In this document: positions 2,545 to 22,794 of the stretch, piece by piece
Layout: every line of letters starts with the position of its first letter
Position numbering within the stretch: the stretch's first letter is position 1
DNA from: a virus
Virus record (IMG/VR): IMGVR_UViG_3300038825_000871
Coordinates: 1-36,495 of that record
Direction: 5' to 3' (one strand)
Length of the DNA stretch: 36,495 nt
Program-made: the position numbers and the translations under genes
The notes under the pieces: model-generated
The model's database searches: none
Told to the model about the DNA's origin: nothing
The model's input: only the letters and a program-made list of their open reading frames with translations

Positions 2545-3358
2545 TTACTACGGAGTCATACTCTATTTTTTCTCCAGATGAATGATATGCTTTCATAACA
2601 GTATCATTGTACCCTTTGACAAACTCCATAAATGATCTCATACGAGCATCGTCTTCTTCACTCCATGTCACTGACTTCTGAGGTGTTAGCTCTGCATGGA
2701 AGTAGATGTTTCCACCTTTTTTCTTCCGTACTGAAGACAGTCCAATATTCATAAGCCACATAGGTTGCTTCTGTCTACTGAGACTCTTTAAGCAGTCAGC
2801 TACAGGTGTAAAGTTAGCTCCTTTTGCATACCACACGCAAGGAACGTCTTTGACAGTAGTTTTACTACCATCTTTATTTACAGCATTCTCAAAAGATACT
2901 AGACCGTAAAGATTCTGAGTACATTTAATACTCTTCTGTACAGCCCACTCTGGACTATCTTTTGGCAATGCCTCTAAGGTATTGTAGTCTAATTTCCCAC
3001 ACTTCTTACCTCCTGCAGTGTCATAAAAGTCACTGCCAAAGGAAGGAGCCTGTACTGTTTGGCAAGAGAAAGCACTAGCTTCATTATCCCAAACAAAGTA
3101 GGAATAAGTACGCATAAACACACGCATAGTAGCTTTCTCACCATATACAGGCCCTTCTGGTGGGGTAGTCAGACTGAACCAGCCTCTTGGAAGAGCATTA
3201 CCATCAAAATCTTCTGTAGCATGGTTGATAGCCAGTCTGCTTACAGATGCTTTCGTAGTATTGTGATCCAATTGACCAGTCAGTTTCATCAGCTCCTCTG
3301 TAGAAACCTTATCTAAGTTTTCTGGCAGAGCAGTATCCATTGTGGTTATTTCAGTCAT
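2537..3358 (-). CDS. Putative single-stranded DNA-binding protein
   Basis: A 273-residue protein between DNA polymerase and the exonuclease, a place where T7-like and marine podoviruses often carry the ssDNA-binding protein. The visible pattern is beta-rich with many aromatic residues (ALPRGWFSLTTPPEGPVYG, MRVFMRTYSYFVWD, KGGNIYFHAELTPQ). This would suit an OB-fold, and the last residues are mildly acidic (EKIEYDSVVNE). There is no diagnostic motif, so the function is inferred from position and composition. The start ATG overlaps the polymerase stop (ATGA). Confidence 0.55.
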   Translation of the reverse strand: MTEITTMDTALPENLDKVSTEELMKLTGQLDHNTTKASVSRLAINHATEDFDGNALPRGWFSLTTPPEGPVYGEKATMRVFMRTYSYFVWDNEASAFSCQTVQAPSFGSDFYDTAGGKKCGKLDYNTLEALPKDSPEWAVQKSIKCTQNLYGLVSFENAVNKDGSKTTVKDVPCVWYAKGANFTPVADCLKSLSRQKQPMWLMNIGLSSVRKKKGGNIYFHAELTPQKSVTWSEEDDARMRSFMEFVKGYNDTVMKAYHSSGEKIEYDSVVNE

Positions 3359-5409
3359 GATTTATATATCTCCTTCATGTCTAACCAATTGTTACCTATT
3401 TTAATCTCGATTCCTATCGGCATATCGTAATCAACATTGTATCTTTTCTTACACTCTTCAGGCAAAGACAACATAGCTTCTTTCATTGTCTCTACAGCTA
3501 AATCCTGTTCGTCTGGATGTACATCAATTACAATGGAATCGTGAACCGTATTACATATTATACTCAACATTTGCTTATCTGTCAACAACTTTTTTAACTT
3601 AATTAATGCAATAGGCAGGAGATCGGCTGTAGCAAACCCTTGTACAGGATAATTTTTTATTGCTGTAGAGTTAGATACTCCACCATACCTCATTCTATAT
3701 ACATTACTAAAGTTATAATATCGACCTGATGGAAGTGTAATCCGATTGTATGTGATGGCATCATTCTGTAAAGTCTCATGCCACTGTGCTATCTTACTAT
3801 ACTTCTCTTTAAATGCTCGATAATACTCCATCTGTTTTGGTGTACCTAAGAACCCTCCATACAAAGGCTTAAACGTATCAGCTTTTGCTTCCTGTCTAGA
3901 CACACCCAGCACAGATGCTGTAAACGAATGTACATCAACATCATTTCTGACATCTTCGTACACTTTATTATCCTTTGCTAAAAAGCCGGCAACCCTAAAC
4001 TCTAGCTGGGAATAATCTCCTTCAAGTATATGTCCACCCTCCCATCTGCTAACTACTACCTTACGTACAGGAAACGTACCACCTCGTGGCATGTTCTGGA
4101 AGTTAGGATTCCTAGAAGATAATCTTCCTGTAGAGGTAACACATTGCATATAATGTGGATGGATTCTACGTCTGTCATCTAAACCTTTTTCTATTCCTTC
4201 TATAAAGGTTTTCAAATAAGTTTTAATTGCATTGTATCTTATATAACTTTCCATAAATGTTTTTTGTTCTGGCTTGGCTGTAACTACTAGACCTTCTAGT
4301 GTAGGCCTATCTGTTTTAAAACCATGTACAGTAAGATCTAATGTGCTTCTTGGTTGCATTCCCAACCCTGCAAAATCTCTAGTTTGCCTGTAGACAACAC
4401 CTGTTTTGTTACAAGTTTTACAAATACGTTTTTGTTTGCCTACCGTACCATCTCTCTTCAAGGCAAACTTATATCCTATACCATTACATGCTGTACATCT
4501 TTGCATGACTGTCTTAAACAGAGGCTTAGTCAAACGTACTATACCTTGTTGAAATGCTTGTGCACTCATAGTTTTTGGTCTTCTCTTCTTTCTTGTGTTA
4601 CCTCGTAACTCATAACCTAGATTAAAACTACTAGCCCATTGTTTTTTATTCAGTACAGCCCTAGAAAATATAATCTTAGACCTATCTTCTGGACTGTCTA
4701 GATTGACAGGAGTATCACCCATTAATTTTTTAACCTCACTGTTAAGATACTTTTCTAGTTCCTGTACTTCCTTTGTATAGGTAGCTTTGATTTCAAATAA
4801 ATTTTTAAGACTTATCTGTAACCCGTTGTTCTCTACATCACACAACACATCACAGAACTCATTCATCAAATCATTAGTACTCTTGAGAGAATCAGGCATG
4901 TTACTTAGCTGTGCTTCATATAATTCTTTTGTTATCTGTACATCTGCTTCACCGTACTCCTTGACTATAGACCAAGGTATGCTCTCAAACGATACATTTT
5001 TTTTCATATATTCTTCGATTAAACCAGTTTTCTTTTGTGGCAGTGCATATCGTTCACAGCACTTGGCTAATGACAACGGAACCTTCTCCCCCCCATGCAA
5101 GATATATTCTGCTATCATAGTATCATGAACCTTGCCTGTATAGATAAACCCACAAGCTCGTAACCACTTTAGATCAAATTTTATGTTATGACCTACTAAT
5201 AAATCTGTGTCATCAAGAACACCCTGTAATATGTCTCTAGCTTTTTCTGTAGGCTCTTGCTCTTTGTGATAGAAGCATAAGTAATTCTGTTCATATCCAT
5301 GTATATAACCAACAGACACCAACATGTTTCCTGTATAGGGATCTGCATCTGATTTCTTATCTTCATTTACACTGTATGTTGTTTCTATATCTAACCAAGC
5401 TATTCTCAT
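3355..5409 (-). CDS. polA: Family A DNA polymerase with 3'-5' exonuclease and DnaJ-like zinc insert
   Basis: A 684-residue replicative polymerase. The exonuclease domain shows D7-I-E9, N75-x3-D79 and Y152-x3-D156, so proofreading should be active. The polymerase domain shows motif A DYSQLE (D465-E470), the O-helix R505-x3-K509-x3-F513-x3-Y517-G, and motif C HDS (H623-D624). F513 matches E. coli Phe762. Between the halves, at 305-333, are C-T-A-C-N-G-I-G and C-K-T-C-N-K-T-G, a pair of DnaJ zinc motifs. This arrangement is reported, as I recall, for phage HMO-2011. The insert lies close to where T7 polymerase has its thioredoxin-binding loop, so it may recruit a processivity partner (inference). 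Confidence 0.95.
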   Translation of the reverse strand: MRIAWLDIETTYSVNEDKKSDADPYTGNMLVSVGYIHGYEQNYLCFYHKEQEPTEKARDILQGVLDDTDLLVGHNIKFDLKWLRACGFIYTGKVHDTMIAEYILHGGEKVPLSLAKCCERYALPQKKTGLIEEYMKKNVSFESIPWSIVKEYGEADVQITKELYEAQLSNMPDSLKSTNDLMNEFCDVLCDVENNGLQISLKNLFEIKATYTKEVQELEKYLNSEVKKLMGDTPVNLDSPEDRSKIIFSRAVLNKKQWASSFNLGYELRGNTRKKRRPKTMSAQAFQQGIVRLTKPLFKTVMQRCTACNGIGYKFALKRDGTVGKQKRICKTCNKTGVVYRQTRDFAGLGMQPRSTLDLTVHGFKTDRPTLEGLVVTAKPEQKTFMESYIRYNAIKTYLKTFIEGIEKGLDDRRRIHPHYMQCVTSTGRLSSRNPNFQNMPRGGTFPVRKVVVSRWEGGHILEGDYSQLEFRVAGFLAKDNKVYEDVRNDVDVHSFTASVLGVSRQEAKADTFKPLYGGFLGTPKQMEYYRAFKEKYSKIAQWHETLQNDAITYNRITLPSGRYYNFSNVYRMRYGGVSNSTAIKNYPVQGFATADLLPIALIKLKKLLTDKQMLSIICNTVHDSIVIDVHPDEQDLAVETMKEAMLSLPEECKKRYNVDYDMPIGIEIKIGNNWLDMKEIYKS

Positions 5410-10416: not shown

Positions 10417-10598
10417 TAACTATGGAATGTGATTACTGTAAGCATGTAGAACACTATGAAGATGAGTGTTCATTTTTTCAAGGTGAAATGTGGGGATTAC
10501 CAGACGATTCTGTCATGTGTAATGCTTGTTTAGAGAAGAAGCCTTGTCCAGATAATGTCCGAAAGTTATATTTAAATGAGGTGGAGAGATTAACATGA
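10413..10598 (+). CDS. Small cysteine-rich zinc-finger-like protein
   Basis: A 61-residue protein. C6-x2-C9 and C36-x2-C39 form a candidate zinc site, with C19 and C45 as extra cysteines (ECDYCKHVEHYEDEC, then VMCNACLEKKPC). It overlaps the next gene by 4 bases. It is likely to bind DNA, RNA or protein through a zinc ribbon; the partner is unknown. It is the second such ribbon protein in the window. Confidence 0.65.
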   Translation: MITMECDYCKHVEHYEDECSFFQGEMWGLPDDSVMCNACLEKKPCPDNVRKLYLNEVERLT

Positions 10599-11107
10599 AC
10601 ATATTCGTACTAGACGAGTGTCCTATACAGTCAGCACAGATGCAATGCGACAAGCACATTGTCAAGATGCCATTGGAAACAGCACAGATGTTATGTTCTG
10701 TATGGCACAGACATGGACAGGGAGATAAAGTGCCTTATAGAGAAGTACACAAAAACCACCCATGTACACTATGGACAGGAGATAGTGCAGAAAACTATGA
10801 GTGGCTATGGCAACATGGTATGGAGTTATGTTTTGAGTACACCAGAAGGTATAACAAGATACATAAATGTCAGCAAGTTATTATGGATTTAGATAAGGTA
10901 CATGCCACTATGTTTCCTGTAGATACTAACGGTACACCACACCCACAGTGTATGCCAGACGAGTATAAATCTACTGAGTTACGTATTCACAGCAATACAG
11001 TTAGGGCATACAGGAGATATTATGTCAACGGTAAAAAGGACATAGCCAAGTGGGAAAAGTCAAGAGCTGTACCCAAATGGTTTACAATGGAAAGTTACAA
11101 ACTATGA
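10595..11107 (+). CDS. Conserved phage protein with CDKH motif
   Basis: A 170-residue protein starting MNIFVLDECPIQSAQMQCDK, then HIVKMPLETAQML and H38/H40. I recognise the pattern 'MNIF.LD..P..aA..cCDKH.VKM..E.aQmL' from many unrelated phages, where it is usually unnamed. The invariant C, D, K and H residues look like an active site, so an enzyme is likely, but I do not know the reaction. The stop is coupled to the next gene by ATGA. Confidence 0.7.
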   Translation: MNIFVLDECPIQSAQMQCDKHIVKMPLETAQMLCSVWHRHGQGDKVPYREVHKNHPCTLWTGDSAENYEWLWQHGMELCFEYTRRYNKIHKCQQVIMDLDKVHATMFPVDTNGTPHPQCMPDEYKSTELRIHSNTVRAYRRYYVNGKKDIAKWEKSRAVPKWFTMESYKL

Positions 11108-16185: not shown

Positions 16186-16599
16186 ATGCAGCATAACGGT
16201 ATACTAGCAGAAAAGAAAAAAGAATTAACAGACAAACAGAAATCGTTTCTGTCTAATCTATTTGATACAGGTGGTAACATCAATTTAGCTTTAGAAAAAG
16301 CAGGGTATAGTAAGACTTCACGAAGCATGGTGTTAAAAACATTATCAGATGAAATATTAGAGGCAGCTAAAACAGAAATGGCTGCACACTCTGTAACAGC
16401 AATACACAGAGTAGTAGAAGGAATGAATGATGTGGGTGAACATCCACGAGCAGAATTAAGATTAAAGGCTGCCCAAACTCTATTAGATAGAGTAGGATTG
16501 GGAAAGCAGGAGAAAGTAGAAATAGAAGGCAAGCTGTTACATGGTGTAGTTCTTATGCCAGCAAAGAAAGCTATGCCAACAGTTACTATAGAAGAGTAA
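16186..16599 (+). CDS. terS: Terminase small subunit
   Basis: A 137-residue protein. KELTDKQKSFLSNLFDTGGN followed by INLALEKAGYSKTSRS is the helix-turn-helix plan of small terminases ('lt.kq..Fl......gn...A...aGYs'). A longer helical middle and KAAQTLLDRVGLGKQEK (oligomerisation) follow. It would recognise the packaging site and feed DNA to the large subunit at 21199. About 4.5 kb of other genes separates the two subunits, a wide separation. Confidence 0.75.
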   Translation: MQHNGILAEKKKELTDKQKSFLSNLFDTGGNINLALEKAGYSKTSRSMVLKTLSDEILEAAKTEMAAHSVTAIHRVVEGMNDVGEHPRAELRLKAAQTLLDRVGLGKQEKVEIEGKLLHGVVLMPAKKAMPTVTIEE

Positions 16600-16600
16600 C

Positions 16601-17311
16601 ATGGGATTTTTAGACAACAGCAACATATTAGAATTGGCTAAAAAGAAAGCTATAGAGGATTATCCTGTAATAGAAAAATATGTAACAGATGAAATAGATT
16701 ATATTTTAGACAATAGGTATGGTTATTCAGAATACTTTTCACCTACAGAAAAAGGGTTTGAAGGAAACGTACCAGAATTTCATAGAAAGAAATTAACTTT
16801 ATCAGGGTCTCCAGCAACAAAACGAATGAAAGCTACAGTAGCTATAAATCCTAAATTTGCAGAAAGAGGTGTAGATCATTTATCAGGAGCTATTGTAGGA
16901 GAAACATTACATCATATGAAGGAGTATGATAAAGGCTGGAAAAAATTGTGGAATAAATTTGATGCAGCTACAAAAAAAGACCCTAAGTATAAAGAGTTTA
17001 ATAGAGGAAGGCAAGCTAAGTATAATCGTCAAAATATGGAAAGATATTCACAACAAGCAAATAGACGAGGGTACGTTGGTACTGAATCAGCTGTACAATT
17101 AGATAAAAGACCTGTAGAAGATTTTATAAAATACTCAGCAAACGATGAATTTATTAGAGCATCTTTATTTTCAGATCATCCCGTAATGGGGGAGTATTTT
17201 GATAAGACTTTTAAAGGAAGTCCGGTAGAACAAAAATATAAAACATATTTTAATGCTTTTAAAAAGTATTTGAATAAACGAAATTTTTTAACAACAACTA
17301 ACAAGGAGTAA
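16601..17311 (+). CDS. Hypothetical protein
   Basis: A 236-residue basic soluble protein. A central helix VDHLSGAIVGETLHHMKEYD resembles the zinc helix of some peptidases, but the HExxH signature is not met, so no protease is called. The C-terminal part is rich in Lys, Tyr and Phe. It lies directly after terS. It may be a virion or packaging protein; this is unproven. Confidence 0.6.
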   Translation: MGFLDNSNILELAKKKAIEDYPVIEKYVTDEIDYILDNRYGYSEYFSPTEKGFEGNVPEFHRKKLTLSGSPATKRMKATVAINPKFAERGVDHLSGAIVGETLHHMKEYDKGWKKLWNKFDAATKKDPKYKEFNRGRQAKYNRQNMERYSQQANRRGYVGTESAVQLDKRPVEDFIKYSANDEFIRASLFSDHPVMGEYFDKTFKGSPVEQKYKTYFNAFKKYLNKRNFLTTTNKE

Positions 17312-17315
17312 TACC

Positions 17316-17390
17316 ATGTGGAAATCACCAATAGTTAAAGAAATATCTGTAGGTCTGGAAATTAACTGCTATGCTTGTGCAGAGATTTAA
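17316..17390 (+). CDS. pqqA: PqqA-like PQQ precursor peptide
   Basis: A 24-residue peptide behind a strong AAGGAG (8 bases from ATG). It begins MWKSPIVKEISVGLEINCY. The tryptophan-proline opening, the 'V.Ei.vG.Ei..Y' body and E15-x3-Y19 match PqqA, whose Glu and Tyr are cross-linked by the radical-SAM enzyme PqqE (with PqqD) and become pyrroloquinoline quinone (known pathway). No pqqB-E gene is in the window, so the peptide would depend on host enzymes. PQQ serves periplasmic methanol and sugar/alcohol dehydrogenases. Length equals typical PqqA (22-26). Confidence 0.75.
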   Translation: MWKSPIVKEISVGLEINCYACAEI

Positions 17391-17399
17391 TAATTAAAC

Positions 17400-17945
17400 A
17401 TGAACAAACTATGCTGTATCTTAATAAGTCTACTAATGTTGCTGTCCGTAAGTGCATTTGCAGCAGATACAGTAACGTCAACTTCATCCACAGTATCAGG
17501 AACAACAACAGTAGATAGAACCCCTAGTACTGCCAATGCTCCATCTGTGGTAATAAATAATCAAGACGTTTGCAGCTTTGCTGCCTCAGCAGCCATACAA
17601 ACACAAGTATTGGGTATAGCCGGTGGAACAGCAATAAGAGATCTAAATTGTGAACGTCTTAAATTATCAAGAGCTTTATATAGAATGGGGATGAAAGTAG
17701 GAGCCATAGCCATGCTCTGCCAAGATGCTAGAATATTCAATGCAATGGAAATGGCTGGCACACCCTGCCCATTCAAAGGAAAAATTGGCTTAGATGCTGC
17801 TAAAGCATGGGCTGAGAATCCTGAGATGAGACCAGATTATGACAAATGGGTTAAAGAGAATGTTACTGATAAAGAAATTACTAAAGAGGAAGCTACCGGC
17901 CTTGGTATTGGCATCGGTGGTATTCTTCTTTTACTCCTTCTCTAG
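17400..17945 (+). CDS. Exported hypothetical protein with C-terminal hydrophobic tail
   Basis: A 181-residue protein. Residues 1-22 are a signal peptide with cleavage after AFA. The next stretch is Ser/Thr-rich, followed by a conserved-looking core with four cysteines (VCSFAAS, DLNCERLKLSRALYRMG, MLCQDARIFNAMEM, GTPCPF) and a C-terminal glycine/leucine membrane segment (GLGIGIGGILLLLLL). It probably sits in the host envelope. Its last ~85 bases also encode the signal peptide of the next gene in another frame. Confidence 0.65.
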   Translation: MNKLCCILISLLMLLSVSAFAADTVTSTSSTVSGTTTVDRTPSTANAPSVVINNQDVCSFAASAAIQTQVLGIAGGTAIRDLNCERLKLSRALYRMGMKVGAIAMLCQDARIFNAMEMAGTPCPFKGKIGLDAAKAWAENPEMRPDYDKWVKENVTDKEITKEEATGLGIGIGGILLLLLL

Positions 17946-19503
17946 TCAAGCTGAGTTACTAACACCGGGGGAAACCTCTGTAGAAGAAACAGTAACTGAG
18001 CATTTAGGTGAAGGACACATTGATACTGTAACAAAGACTACTACAATAATTGAGAACAAAACAACAGGTGATCTTTTAGATAGTAGTACAGGAGTCGTAG
18101 CCACAAGGTACGAGGGTGATATGGATCAGGATTGGGGTGGGCTTGGTCCAGCAAGTATGCTAAATTGTAATGCACATTTTGGTACAGGGACATGTGGTAA
18201 GGGTACATCGTCATCCTTAACTACATTTGACCAGTATGTAGATATAAGTGAGTTTCACATATCAGATGGTGGTGCTCTAGAATGGGAACTTCAAATGTAC
18301 CATTCACAGAATAACACAACAGGATACTTTGAAACTAAAGGATACAGCAATAATGTATTACAATGGGAATCTGGACAGATAAACTTAGAGAACACAGGAA
18401 GTCCAGAAACATTTACAGGAACACAAAATTTTACAGGAGACTTAGATAGAGTTTTTATAAGAGTAGGTGGTAAGAATAATTACTTTTTTGATAACGTAGC
18501 TTACACTGTAAATTATAACGTGATAACAACTACTGTAGAGACATGGGTAGAAATAGTACAGCCGATGCAAATGAATGAGTCTCTAACATTAGAAATGATA
18601 GAAACATACGAAGTAGCATCTCCAGAACAACAACAAGAGATGGATAACATGATGCAAGATATGGACATGGTAGTTCATATTGATTTAGGAACTGCAGAGT
18701 TTGGTCCTGATATGCAAATAGATGACATGTCAATGGATATGCCACAAGATACTATGACAAATATGGATACGATGTTTCAAGATATAGATGTAGGTAACAT
18801 GTCTTTTGATGAAGTAATGCAAGAAGTTGAGGTAGCAGTAGCTGAAATAGAAAATGTAGGCATAGAAGTAGAAACTATTGAAATTAAAATGCCAAATGTT
18901 GAAAAAAGTCCTACAGAAATGAGCACTGAAGGGGGTCCAGAAGACCTTGAGGTACCTACCCAGCCGGAAGATACTAAAGTCTCTGAGAGCTCAACAGAAG
19001 CTCAGGAAACACTAAGTGAAGAAAATGTAGAAGAAAATATACAAGTTTCTGAGAATGTAGTAGAAAAGCCAGTAGTTGAAGAGAAAACAGAGGCAAAAGA
19101 AGAGACTGTACAGGAAGAAGCACCAAAAGAAGAGGTTGCTAAAGAAGAATCTAAAGAAGAAGCTCCTGTAGAAAAAGTAGAAAAGGCAGAAGAACAACCT
19201 AAAGAAGTAGCAGAGAACAAACCTACTAAAGAACAAGTAAATAAACAAGAGAAAGCAAAAAGGATAATGACAGCAATGGCAAGTAGTTATGATCCTGTAG
19301 CACAAATGACAACACTTGCTCTTGTAAATGCATTAGGCCCAGATATTTCTAGCTACAGTAATCAAGTTCCTGTTGTACAGCCATCATGGTATGAAACAAA
19401 AGATATATATCAAAACACTGTACTACCAGATCCTTTAGGAAGTTACATATCAGTTAGCTCAAGTTTACAAATGGAAAAGATGGTAAGTCAACAGTATGAG
19501 TAG
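17860..19503 (+). CDS. Large exported protein: beta-sandwich, Met-rich and Glu/Lys-rich regions
   Basis: A 547-residue protein from the ATG at 17860 (another in-frame ATG is at 17839). It starts with a signal peptide, LPALVLASVVFFFYSF, cleaved after SQA. Residues to about 220 look like a beta-sandwich (ALEWELQMYHSQNNTTGYF, DRVFIRVGGKNNYFFDNVAY). Next is a Met/Asp-rich part (QEMDNMMQDMDM, MSMDMPQDTMTNMD), then a long Glu/Lys/Val/Pro-rich spacer (EEAPKEEVAKEESKEEAP), and a folded end. It may be a surface or envelope protein. It overlaps the upstream gene by 86 bases. Confidence 0.6.
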   Translation: MLLIKKLLKRKLPALVLASVVFFFYSFSSQAELLTPGETSVEETVTEHLGEGHIDTVTKTTTIIENKTTGDLLDSSTGVVATRYEGDMDQDWGGLGPASMLNCNAHFGTGTCGKGTSSSLTTFDQYVDISEFHISDGGALEWELQMYHSQNNTTGYFETKGYSNNVLQWESGQINLENTGSPETFTGTQNFTGDLDRVFIRVGGKNNYFFDNVAYTVNYNVITTTVETWVEIVQPMQMNESLTLEMIETYEVASPEQQQEMDNMMQDMDMVVHIDLGTAEFGPDMQIDDMSMDMPQDTMTNMDTMFQDIDVGNMSFDEVMQEVEVAVAEIENVGIEVETIEIKMPNVEKSPTEMSTEGGPEDLEVPTQPEDTKVSESSTEAQETLSEENVEENIQVSENVVEKPVVEEKTEAKEETVQEEAPKEEVAKEESKEEAPVEKVEKAEEQPKEVAENKPTKEQVNKQEKAKRIMTAMASSYDPVAQMTTLALVNALGPDISSYSNQVPVVQPSWYETKDIYQNTVLPDPLGSYISVSSSLQMEKMVSQQYE

Positions 19504-21198: not shown

Positions 21199-22794
21199 AT
21201 GAGAGCCAAACTTGCTACTCAAAAAAAGCTTTCTGCTAAGAAAATACAAGCTGATAAGCTAACAAAGCAGGCAAAAAAAGCTAGAGCAGCATCAAAAAGG
21301 GCTCAGGAGGCATCTAAAAAGGTAGATGATGCATTAAAAGGTAGAGGAAAGTCCGTTGTCACTACAGATGATCTAAAAAACGTACCTAAAGCACTTAGAG
21401 ATCACCTGAAAGACCATGACGTTGTATTTAGACCGAATGAAGGGCCTCAAACTACCTTTTTAGAGTCTCCAGAAAGAGATATATTATACGGAGGAGCAGC
21501 TGGAGGAGGTAAATCATATGCACTTTTAGCTGATGTGCTAAGAGATGCATCAAATCCTAATCATAGAGGGTTGTTGTTAAGAAGAACACTAGCTGAATTA
21601 ACAGAGTTAATAGATAAAAGTAGACAAGTATACACAAAAGCATTTCCCGGTGCAGTATTTAAGCAAGCTAAATCAACATGGGAGTTTCCGTCTGGGGCTA
21701 AAATATGGTTTTCTTACGTAGATGATGACCGAGATGTAACAAGATACCAAGGACAAGCTTTTAATTGGATAGGAATAGACGAAATAACACAATATCCTAC
21801 TCCATACACATGGAATTACCTAAGATCTAGGCTTAGAACAACAGATCCAGCACTTGGTATGTACATGCGTTGCACAGCAAACCCCGGAGGTGTAGGAGGT
21901 TGGTGGGTAAAGAAGATGTATTTAGATCATGCACCACCCGGAGAGCCTTTTTGGGCTAGAGATTTTGATAATGGAGAGATATTAAAGTATCCTCCTAGAC
22001 ATACGAAAGCAGGGGAACCTTTGTTCCTAAGAAAATTTGTTCCTGCAAGATTAACAGACAATCCATATCTGTTTGATGACGGTCAATACGAAGCAATGTT
22101 GATGTCATTGCCTGAAGTAGAAAGAAAGAGACTACTTGATGGAGATTGGGATGTAGCCGAAGGTGCAGCCTTTACAGAGTTTAGTAAAAGTATGCATGTT
22201 TCTGAACCATTTGACATTCCAGAGGGTTGGGCAAGAGTAAGATCAGGTGACTATGGTTACAGCAGCCCTTCTTGTATACTTTGGGGTGCAATAGACTGGG
22301 ATAACAATCTTTGGGTGTATAGAGAACTATATGTTAAAGGATTTACCGGTGAAAGGCTTGGAGATACAATAGCTATGATAGAAAAAGACGATCCACCCAT
22401 GCAATTAGCTGTTTTAGATGCAAGTTGTTGGAACAGAACAGGTCTAGGACCTAGTATAGCAGAAACAATGATAAAAAGAGGTGTAAGATGGATACCATCA
22501 GACAGAAATCGTATGGCAGGAAAGATAGAAGTACACAGAAGGTTAGCTTGTGATGACTATGGAAATCCTCGTGTTCGTGTTTTTTCCACTTGCAATAATC
22601 TTATCAGAACTTTGCCCACGTTGCCTCTGTCTAAGACTAATCCTGAAGACGTTGATACAAAAGCTGACGACCATGCGTATGATGCACTAAGATATATGGT
22701 AATGAGTAGAACTTTAGTAAATGTACATAACACACATAGAATGACAAGGCATACACAAAAATATGAACCCCAAGATCAAGTATTTGGATATTAA
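21199..22794 (+). CDS. terL: Terminase large subunit
   Basis: A 531-residue packaging motor from the first ATG (probably longer; see the entry at 21118). The N-terminal 50 residues are basic coiled helix. Walker A is GGAAGGGKS (98-106), Walker B is FNWIGIDE (to 194-195), and the coupling motif is in CTANPGG. The nuclease domain shows D351 in RSGDYGY, D407 in LAVLDASCW and the late DDHAYDALRY acidic cluster. It pumps and cuts DNA at the portal. The neighbours portal, scaffold and capsid follow in the usual order. Confidence 0.95.
   Translation: MRAKLATQKKLSAKKIQADKLTKQAKKARAASKRAQEASKKVDDALKGRGKSVVTTDDLKNVPKALRDHLKDHDVVFRPNEGPQTTFLESPERDILYGGAAGGGKSYALLADVLRDASNPNHRGLLLRRTLAELTELIDKSRQVYTKAFPGAVFKQAKSTWEFPSGAKIWFSYVDDDRDVTRYQGQAFNWIGIDEITQYPTPYTWNYLRSRLRTTDPALGMYMRCTANPGGVGGWWVKKMYLDHAPPGEPFWARDFDNGEILKYPPRHTKAGEPLFLRKFVPARLTDNPYLFDDGQYEAMLMSLPEVERKRLLDGDWDVAEGAAFTEFSKSMHVSEPFDIPEGWARVRSGDYGYSSPSCILWGAIDWDNNLWVYRELYVKGFTGERLGDTIAMIEKDDPPMQLAVLDASCWNRTGLGPSIAETMIKRGVRWIPSDRNRMAGKIEVHRRLACDDYGNPRVRVFSTCNNLIRTLPTLPLSKTNPEDVDTKADDHAYDALRYMVMSRTLVNVHNTHRMTRHTQKYEPQDQVFGY

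Follow-up and report, generated by a model that had tools for sequence, protein, structure and literature searches.

A marine phage genome fragment, here called the window (a 36,495-base virus record with 35.3% G+C, analyzed in full), carries a gene that, judged from its sequence, encodes a genuine PqqA, the precursor peptide of PQQ. We think it very probable that this pqqA is an auxiliary metabolic gene with which the phage pushes the PQQ output of host enzymes. PQQ loads periplasmic dehydrogenases that oxidize methanol and other alcohols in the sea. Each PQQ uses up one PqqA, and PqqB, PqqC, PqqD, and PqqE act repeatedly. Because PqqA is consumed one for one and the enzymes are not, carrying pqqA alone would be the least costly means of raising or sustaining PQQ.

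The features of the window that bear on this reading are as follows.

3355..5409, minus strand: DNA polymerase A (PF00476, PF01612)
16186..16599, plus strand: terminase small subunit (TerS)-like gene (phrog_51, E 8.9e-6)
16601..17311, plus strand: 236-residue protein of unknown function, directly upstream of pqqA (no match in PHROG or Pfam)
17303..17308, plus strand: ribosome-binding site AAGGAG, 7 bases before the ATG, within the end of the upstream gene (from the sequence)
17316..17390, plus strand: pqqA, 24-residue PQQ precursor peptide MWKSPIVKEISVGLEINCYACAEI (PF08042, TIGR02107)
17316..17357, plus strand: leader part of pqqA, residues 1 to 14 (W2, P5, E9, G13), conserved in phages and bacteria (column conservation)
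17358..17372, plus strand: codons E15 to Y19 (EINCY), invariant in all related phage copies
17400..17945, plus strand: 181-residue protein with a hydrophobic N-terminus, directly downstream of pqqA (phrog_20531, unknown function; sequence)
21199..22794, plus strand: terminase large subunit (TerL), placing the phage near HMO-2011-type phages (phrog_979, 1.7e-58)

The open reading frame at 17316 to 17390 on the plus strand comprises 24 codons and a stop, with its ATG at 17316; its length, AAGGAG, E15, and Y19 are exactly as an initial annotation, made from the letters alone, had described them. That annotation had taken the product to be PqqA-like, and a profile check agrees: the peptide scored 24.7 bits with PF08042 (Pfam PqqA; curated cut-off, 21.1) and 30.8 bits with TIGR02107 (NCBIfam equivalog; curated cut-off, 20). 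PqqA was the sole model over its cut-off, and the same PqqA model found nothing above cut-off in any of 14 control genomes. Members of the family are about 22 to 29 residues long and have W and P close to their N-terminus; the window peptide has 24, with W2 and P5, and its E15 and Y19 form the family's E-x3-Y. In known PqqA, PqqE joins the glutamate to the tyrosine, and by analogy E15 and Y19 may be cross-linked in the phage peptide. The leader residues, whose conservation was read from the columns of 80 distinct viral and 59 bacterial peptides, are presumably the part recognized by PqqD and PqqE, as we extrapolate from PQQ biosynthesis in general.

The gene stands apart from pqqBCDE, a linkage that is usual for PqqA and not defining; orphan pqqA copies exist in bacteria. 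In line with the initial annotation, the window gave no match to PqqE or PqqD models and no PqqB or PqqC motif; since the window is a fragment of the phage, it does not by itself establish that the whole phage lacks these genes. A promoter or terminator of pqqA's own was represented in the window by weak consensus matches at most.

pqqA lies on the plus strand two genes after the TerS-like gene and 3.8 kb before TerL. The gene order TerS-like gene, one unknown gene, pqqA, and two genes whose products start with a hydrophobic, signal-like sequence bears out the earlier placement between terS and exported proteins. The window also holds terminase, portal, capsid, and DNA polymerase genes and is thus a real phage genome. 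Its TerL is nearest to those of Pelagibacter phages HTVC103P, HTVC104P, and HTVC115P, CRP roseophages, and SAR116 phage HMO-2011 (46 to 54% identity). Between its exonuclease and polymerase parts, DNA polymerase A has a DnaJ-like pair of cysteine motifs, CTACNGIG and CKTCNKTG, the latter a variant of the DnaJ-like CXXCXGXG motif. A DNA polymerase with a DnaJ-like motif has been described for HMO-2011-type phages in a paper that does not mention PQQ (PMC9038755). TerL kinship and the DnaJ-motif polymerase are both present in the window, with placement in this group by TerL tree only; a published phylogeny of the group uses five core genes and distinguishes ten subgroups. Elsewhere in the window, 17839 to 19503 encodes a 554-residue protein whose N-terminus is signal-like and which contains a long low-complexity stretch rich in glutamate and lysine (no match in PHROG or Pfam), its gene overlapping the end of the gene before it, and 10595 to 11107 is a pyrimidine dimer DNA glycosylase-like gene (PF03013). 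No tRNA genes were found in the window.

Among 80 TerL-related viral records, 21 had a PqqA match over cut-off, many of the remainder being fragments that end short of the pqqA site. All 21 keep G-L/M-E-I-N-C-Y-x-C-A, with pqqA 2.0 to 5.8 kb before TerL, and E-x3-Y, whose conservation had been set beforehand as a test, is invariant in the related phages. In the scan of related phages that the initial annotation had called for, these 21 relatives have the gene, and the isolates HMO-2011, HTVC033P, and HTVC115P gave no match. On a TerL tree whose rows are records covering the pqqA region plus three isolates, pqqA is present in 22 of the 27 rows of the window's HMO-2011-like clade, and three changes suffice to account for it, e.g., one gain and two losses. 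In four relatives (L025, L027, L028, and L036), the flanking sequence is preserved and a cassette of roughly 100 bases, the ribosome-binding site plus pqqA, is cleanly absent. Nei-Gojobori dN/dS ratios on 23 codons, which are rough estimates with a clear direction, were 0.19 for the TerL-defined set and 0.12 for all viral copies; judged from these substitutions, purifying selection acts on phage pqqA. In copies collected with the sequence pattern described below, positions 13 to 22 are partly fixed by the search itself, and the TerL-defined set is the fair one for conservation. A host-like peptide is thus found inside a real phage genome and is kept by selection (dN/dS, 0.12 to 0.19; 22/27 rows), as is expected of an auxiliary metabolic gene.

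The window's type of pqqA extends beyond this clade. A degenerate DNA pattern for GxEINCYxCA collected at least 120 viral stretches, and the alphaproteobacterial-type gene is found in two or more additional phage lineages. In a second group of marine phages, to which the isolates HTVC027P and HTVC023P come nearest, pqqA sits between an upstream portal gene and a downstream GroES-like co-chaperonin gene, with more than 40 loci among the matches listed (including L240, L217, and L248). In T4-like marine phages, it lies beside late transcription regulator and helicase loader genes (gp33/gp59), with about nine loci among the matches listed (including L201, L216, L241, L263, L284, and L291). No pqqB, pqqC, or pqqE motif was seen at the window-type viral loci among the matches listed, and none of 47 whole pqqA-bearing viral records passed the cut-offs for PqqE or PQQ alcohol dehydrogenase. 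The window-type peptide matched none of 50,697 phage records; because the same query matched 25 plasmid records, isolates with the alphaproteobacterial type seem to be absent from that collection.

Cultured phages of Methylophilales carry a second peptide type. Klebsiella-type and Methylophilales-type PqqA queries each matched 12 of the 50,697 records, with the same make-up: nine Methylophilales phages, one metagenomic podovirus, and two bacterial records. The nine (Venkman, P19250A, MEP301, MEP401, MEP402, and four Melnitz records) are all of the Methylophilales phage records found in the collection (9/9); NCBI taxonomy lists further ones. The Methylophilales phages MEP431 to MEP434 were not found in the collection; taxonomy places MEP431 in Pelagivirus, and the best 60 records of a search for Pelagivirus RNA polymerase included no such phage. 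Representatives of the Methylophilales phage peptides score over the TIGR02107 cut-off. The initial annotation knew of no isolate reports; pqqA is in fact present in cultured phage isolates, unannotated, with no gene annotated at the pqqA site on its strand in any of six isolate records examined. The papers searched on these phages contain no mention of PQQ genes. A Methylophilales-type pattern collected at least 120 viral stretches, with no pqqB, pqqC, or pqqE motif among the matches listed. The two bacterial records, named "Acinetobacter phage MD-2021a" (CAKLQF020000010 and CAKLQH020000055), were rejected as phage and look like bacterial chromosome; in CAKLQF020000010, pqqB, pqqC, pqqD, and a radical SAM gene come right after the pqqA match.

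The peptide offers a lead to the host. With one genome per species, the GxEINCYxCA pattern gave 98 stretches, nearly all alphaproteobacterial, and the taxonomy of matching contigs points to marine Alphaproteobacteria, including TMED109. Nearest to the window peptide are low-G+C marine genomes of ∼1.4 to 1.7 Mb, including TMED109 and SP94; the solitary PqqA of SP94 (L098) is identical to it at 22 of 24 residues, and for two viral peptides the whole sequence starting at the tryptophan is the same as in bacterial counterparts. The initial annotation had left the remaining pqq genes to the host, and candidate hosts have them: a complete operon, pqqA-B-C-D-E, was read in order in each of two genomes, and PqqE scored over cut-off in 11 of 12. 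PQQ alcohol dehydrogenase scored over cut-off in 8 of the 12, and all five dehydrogenases read from candidate hosts have Asp-x-Asp at the key site, which we take to mark lanthanide-type enzymes. Within the candidate hosts, the phage peptide is closest to a solitary second pqqA copy that some of these genomes have. Such copies lie away from the operon (L098 4288, L087 3572, L088 6808, L103 7810, and L179 2354); at the loci with genes listed (L087, L088, L098, and L103) they follow a LysR-like regulator gene, and beyond them, where the contig extends, is a transporter-like gene on the other strand. The candidates resemble AEGEAN-169 in G+C and size alone, both agreeing with published values (PMC10308909). 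Phage G+C is 35% and that of the candidate hosts about 30%. The candidate hosts are streamlined marine Alphaproteobacteria in which a pqqABCDE operon and PQQ alcohol dehydrogenases occur; what points to them is the similarity of the peptides and, more loosely, base composition. Across phages, peptide type tracks host, with EINCYxCAE going with alphaproteobacteria and GFEVTMY with Methylophilales phages.

Every refuting condition named in the initial annotation was checked, and none held. Its reading of pqqA is therefore supported, and we infer the following course of events. The phage would provide the PqqA substrate, from which host PqqB to PqqE would make PQQ: host PqqD would bind the phage peptide, host PqqE would join E15 to Y19, and host PqqB and PqqC would finish the cofactor. 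The PQQ would then load periplasmic PQQ alcohol or methanol dehydrogenases, keeping electrons flowing to respiration during infection, from which the phage would benefit. Host-matched peptide types fit the need for recognition by host PqqD and PqqE. As the initial annotation also suggested, pqqA may be expressed late and at a high level and may raise PQQ during infection. Two observations run counter to this explanation: some close relatives are without pqqA, and two copies can already be present in candidate hosts from the nearest group.

A variant with the same chemistry is that the phage copy replaces rather than boosts. The phage would destroy host DNA or messages, host pqqA mRNA would be exhausted first, and the phage gene would only keep PQQ synthesis level. 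The small size of the gene and its position in the late block suit this variant, and replacement of host functions is typical of phage auxiliary genes in general; we regard it as a serious possibility, if one short of even chances, and boost and replacement are inseparable on present evidence. The lack of processing genes alongside pqqA would also suit a substrate analogue that competes for host PqqD and PqqE, lowering host PQQ synthesis and so redirecting metabolism or denying PQQ to neighbors. Such a decoy would be expected to lose its reactive residues sometimes, yet E and Y are retained in all viral copies that TerL or model searches turned up and dN/dS is low, which makes it unlikely; the two viral peptides that match bacterial ones exactly from the tryptophan onward also speak against it.

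Still more improbable is that likeness to PqqA reflects origin only and that the peptide gives rise to a different PqqE-like product or works as a small regulator. Two conserved cysteines in the C-terminal part (CYxCA) might hint at this, conserved cysteines being found in some other ribosomal peptides as well, but the same tail occurs in bacteria, in pqqA genes at the head of pqqBCDE operons, and only the PqqA model scores over its cut-off. For so short a gene in a metagenomic record, a chance open reading frame or misassembled bacterial DNA might be suspected. This is refuted by synteny, selection, and isolates: the gene recurs at one position, flanked on either side by phage genes, in many independent contigs, it is under purifying selection, and it is present in sequenced isolates.

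We return to the reading in which pqqA augments PQQ production by host enzymes. Taking the lineages together, we lean toward the view that phages have repeatedly evolved a general strategy against bacteria that depend on PQQ, namely to carry a cofactor's consumed precursor peptide and leave out the enzymes that process it. On this view, the strategy is found in several unrelated lineages, perhaps six or more, each with a pqqA matched to its host clade, and most or all Methylophilales phages carry a pqqA. If so, a solitary pqqA would allow a host that makes PQQ to be predicted from sequence and may help to assign hosts to many marine viruses that have none assigned. If phages routinely supply the PQQ precursor, infection would directly steer carbon oxidation in abundant bacteria. 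Cultured phage-host pairs with pqqA exist (Venkman, Melnitz, MEP301, and MEP401/402 on OM43 strains). pqqA is too short for usual annotation, and other tiny precursor-peptide genes in phages are worth looking for. As far as the literature shows, it is new that marine phages carry pqqA of the alphaproteobacterial type, that unrelated lineages have acquired this gene repeatedly and without its partner genes, that isolates infecting Methylophilales contain an unannotated pqqA, and that peptide type matches host clade.

Compared with bacterial PqqA, such as that of SP94 (L098), the window peptide keeps W2, P5, G13, E15, and Y19, whereas its gene lies among packaging and late genes with no pqqBCDE beside it. 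HMO-2011-type phages (PMC9038755) share with the window TerL kinship, capsid and portal genes, and the DnaJ-motif DNA polymerase; HMO-2011, HTVC033P, and HTVC115P, the isolates tested, differ from the window phage in giving no pqqA match. The cultured Methylophilales phages (Venkman, P19250A, MEP301, MEP401/402, and Melnitz) likewise carry a solitary pqqA over the TIGR02107 cut-off, but with the GFEVTMY peptide type, in other phage families, and at other genome positions. The initial annotation had allowed that PQQ genes might already have been noted in metagenomes, and this proved right: pqqA appears in a list of virus genes from reservoir sediment (PMC13188868), and a virus-encoded PqqA was proposed as an auxiliary metabolic gene for the Lake Baikal methylotroph virus population VP_266, a freshwater methylotroph virus with methanol dehydrogenase as well (PMC7678222). 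The window differs from VP_266 in that it belongs to a marine HMO-2011-like phage, that its peptide is of the alphaproteobacterial type, and that related records gave no dehydrogenase match; what the two have in common is a virus-encoded PQQ precursor peptide.
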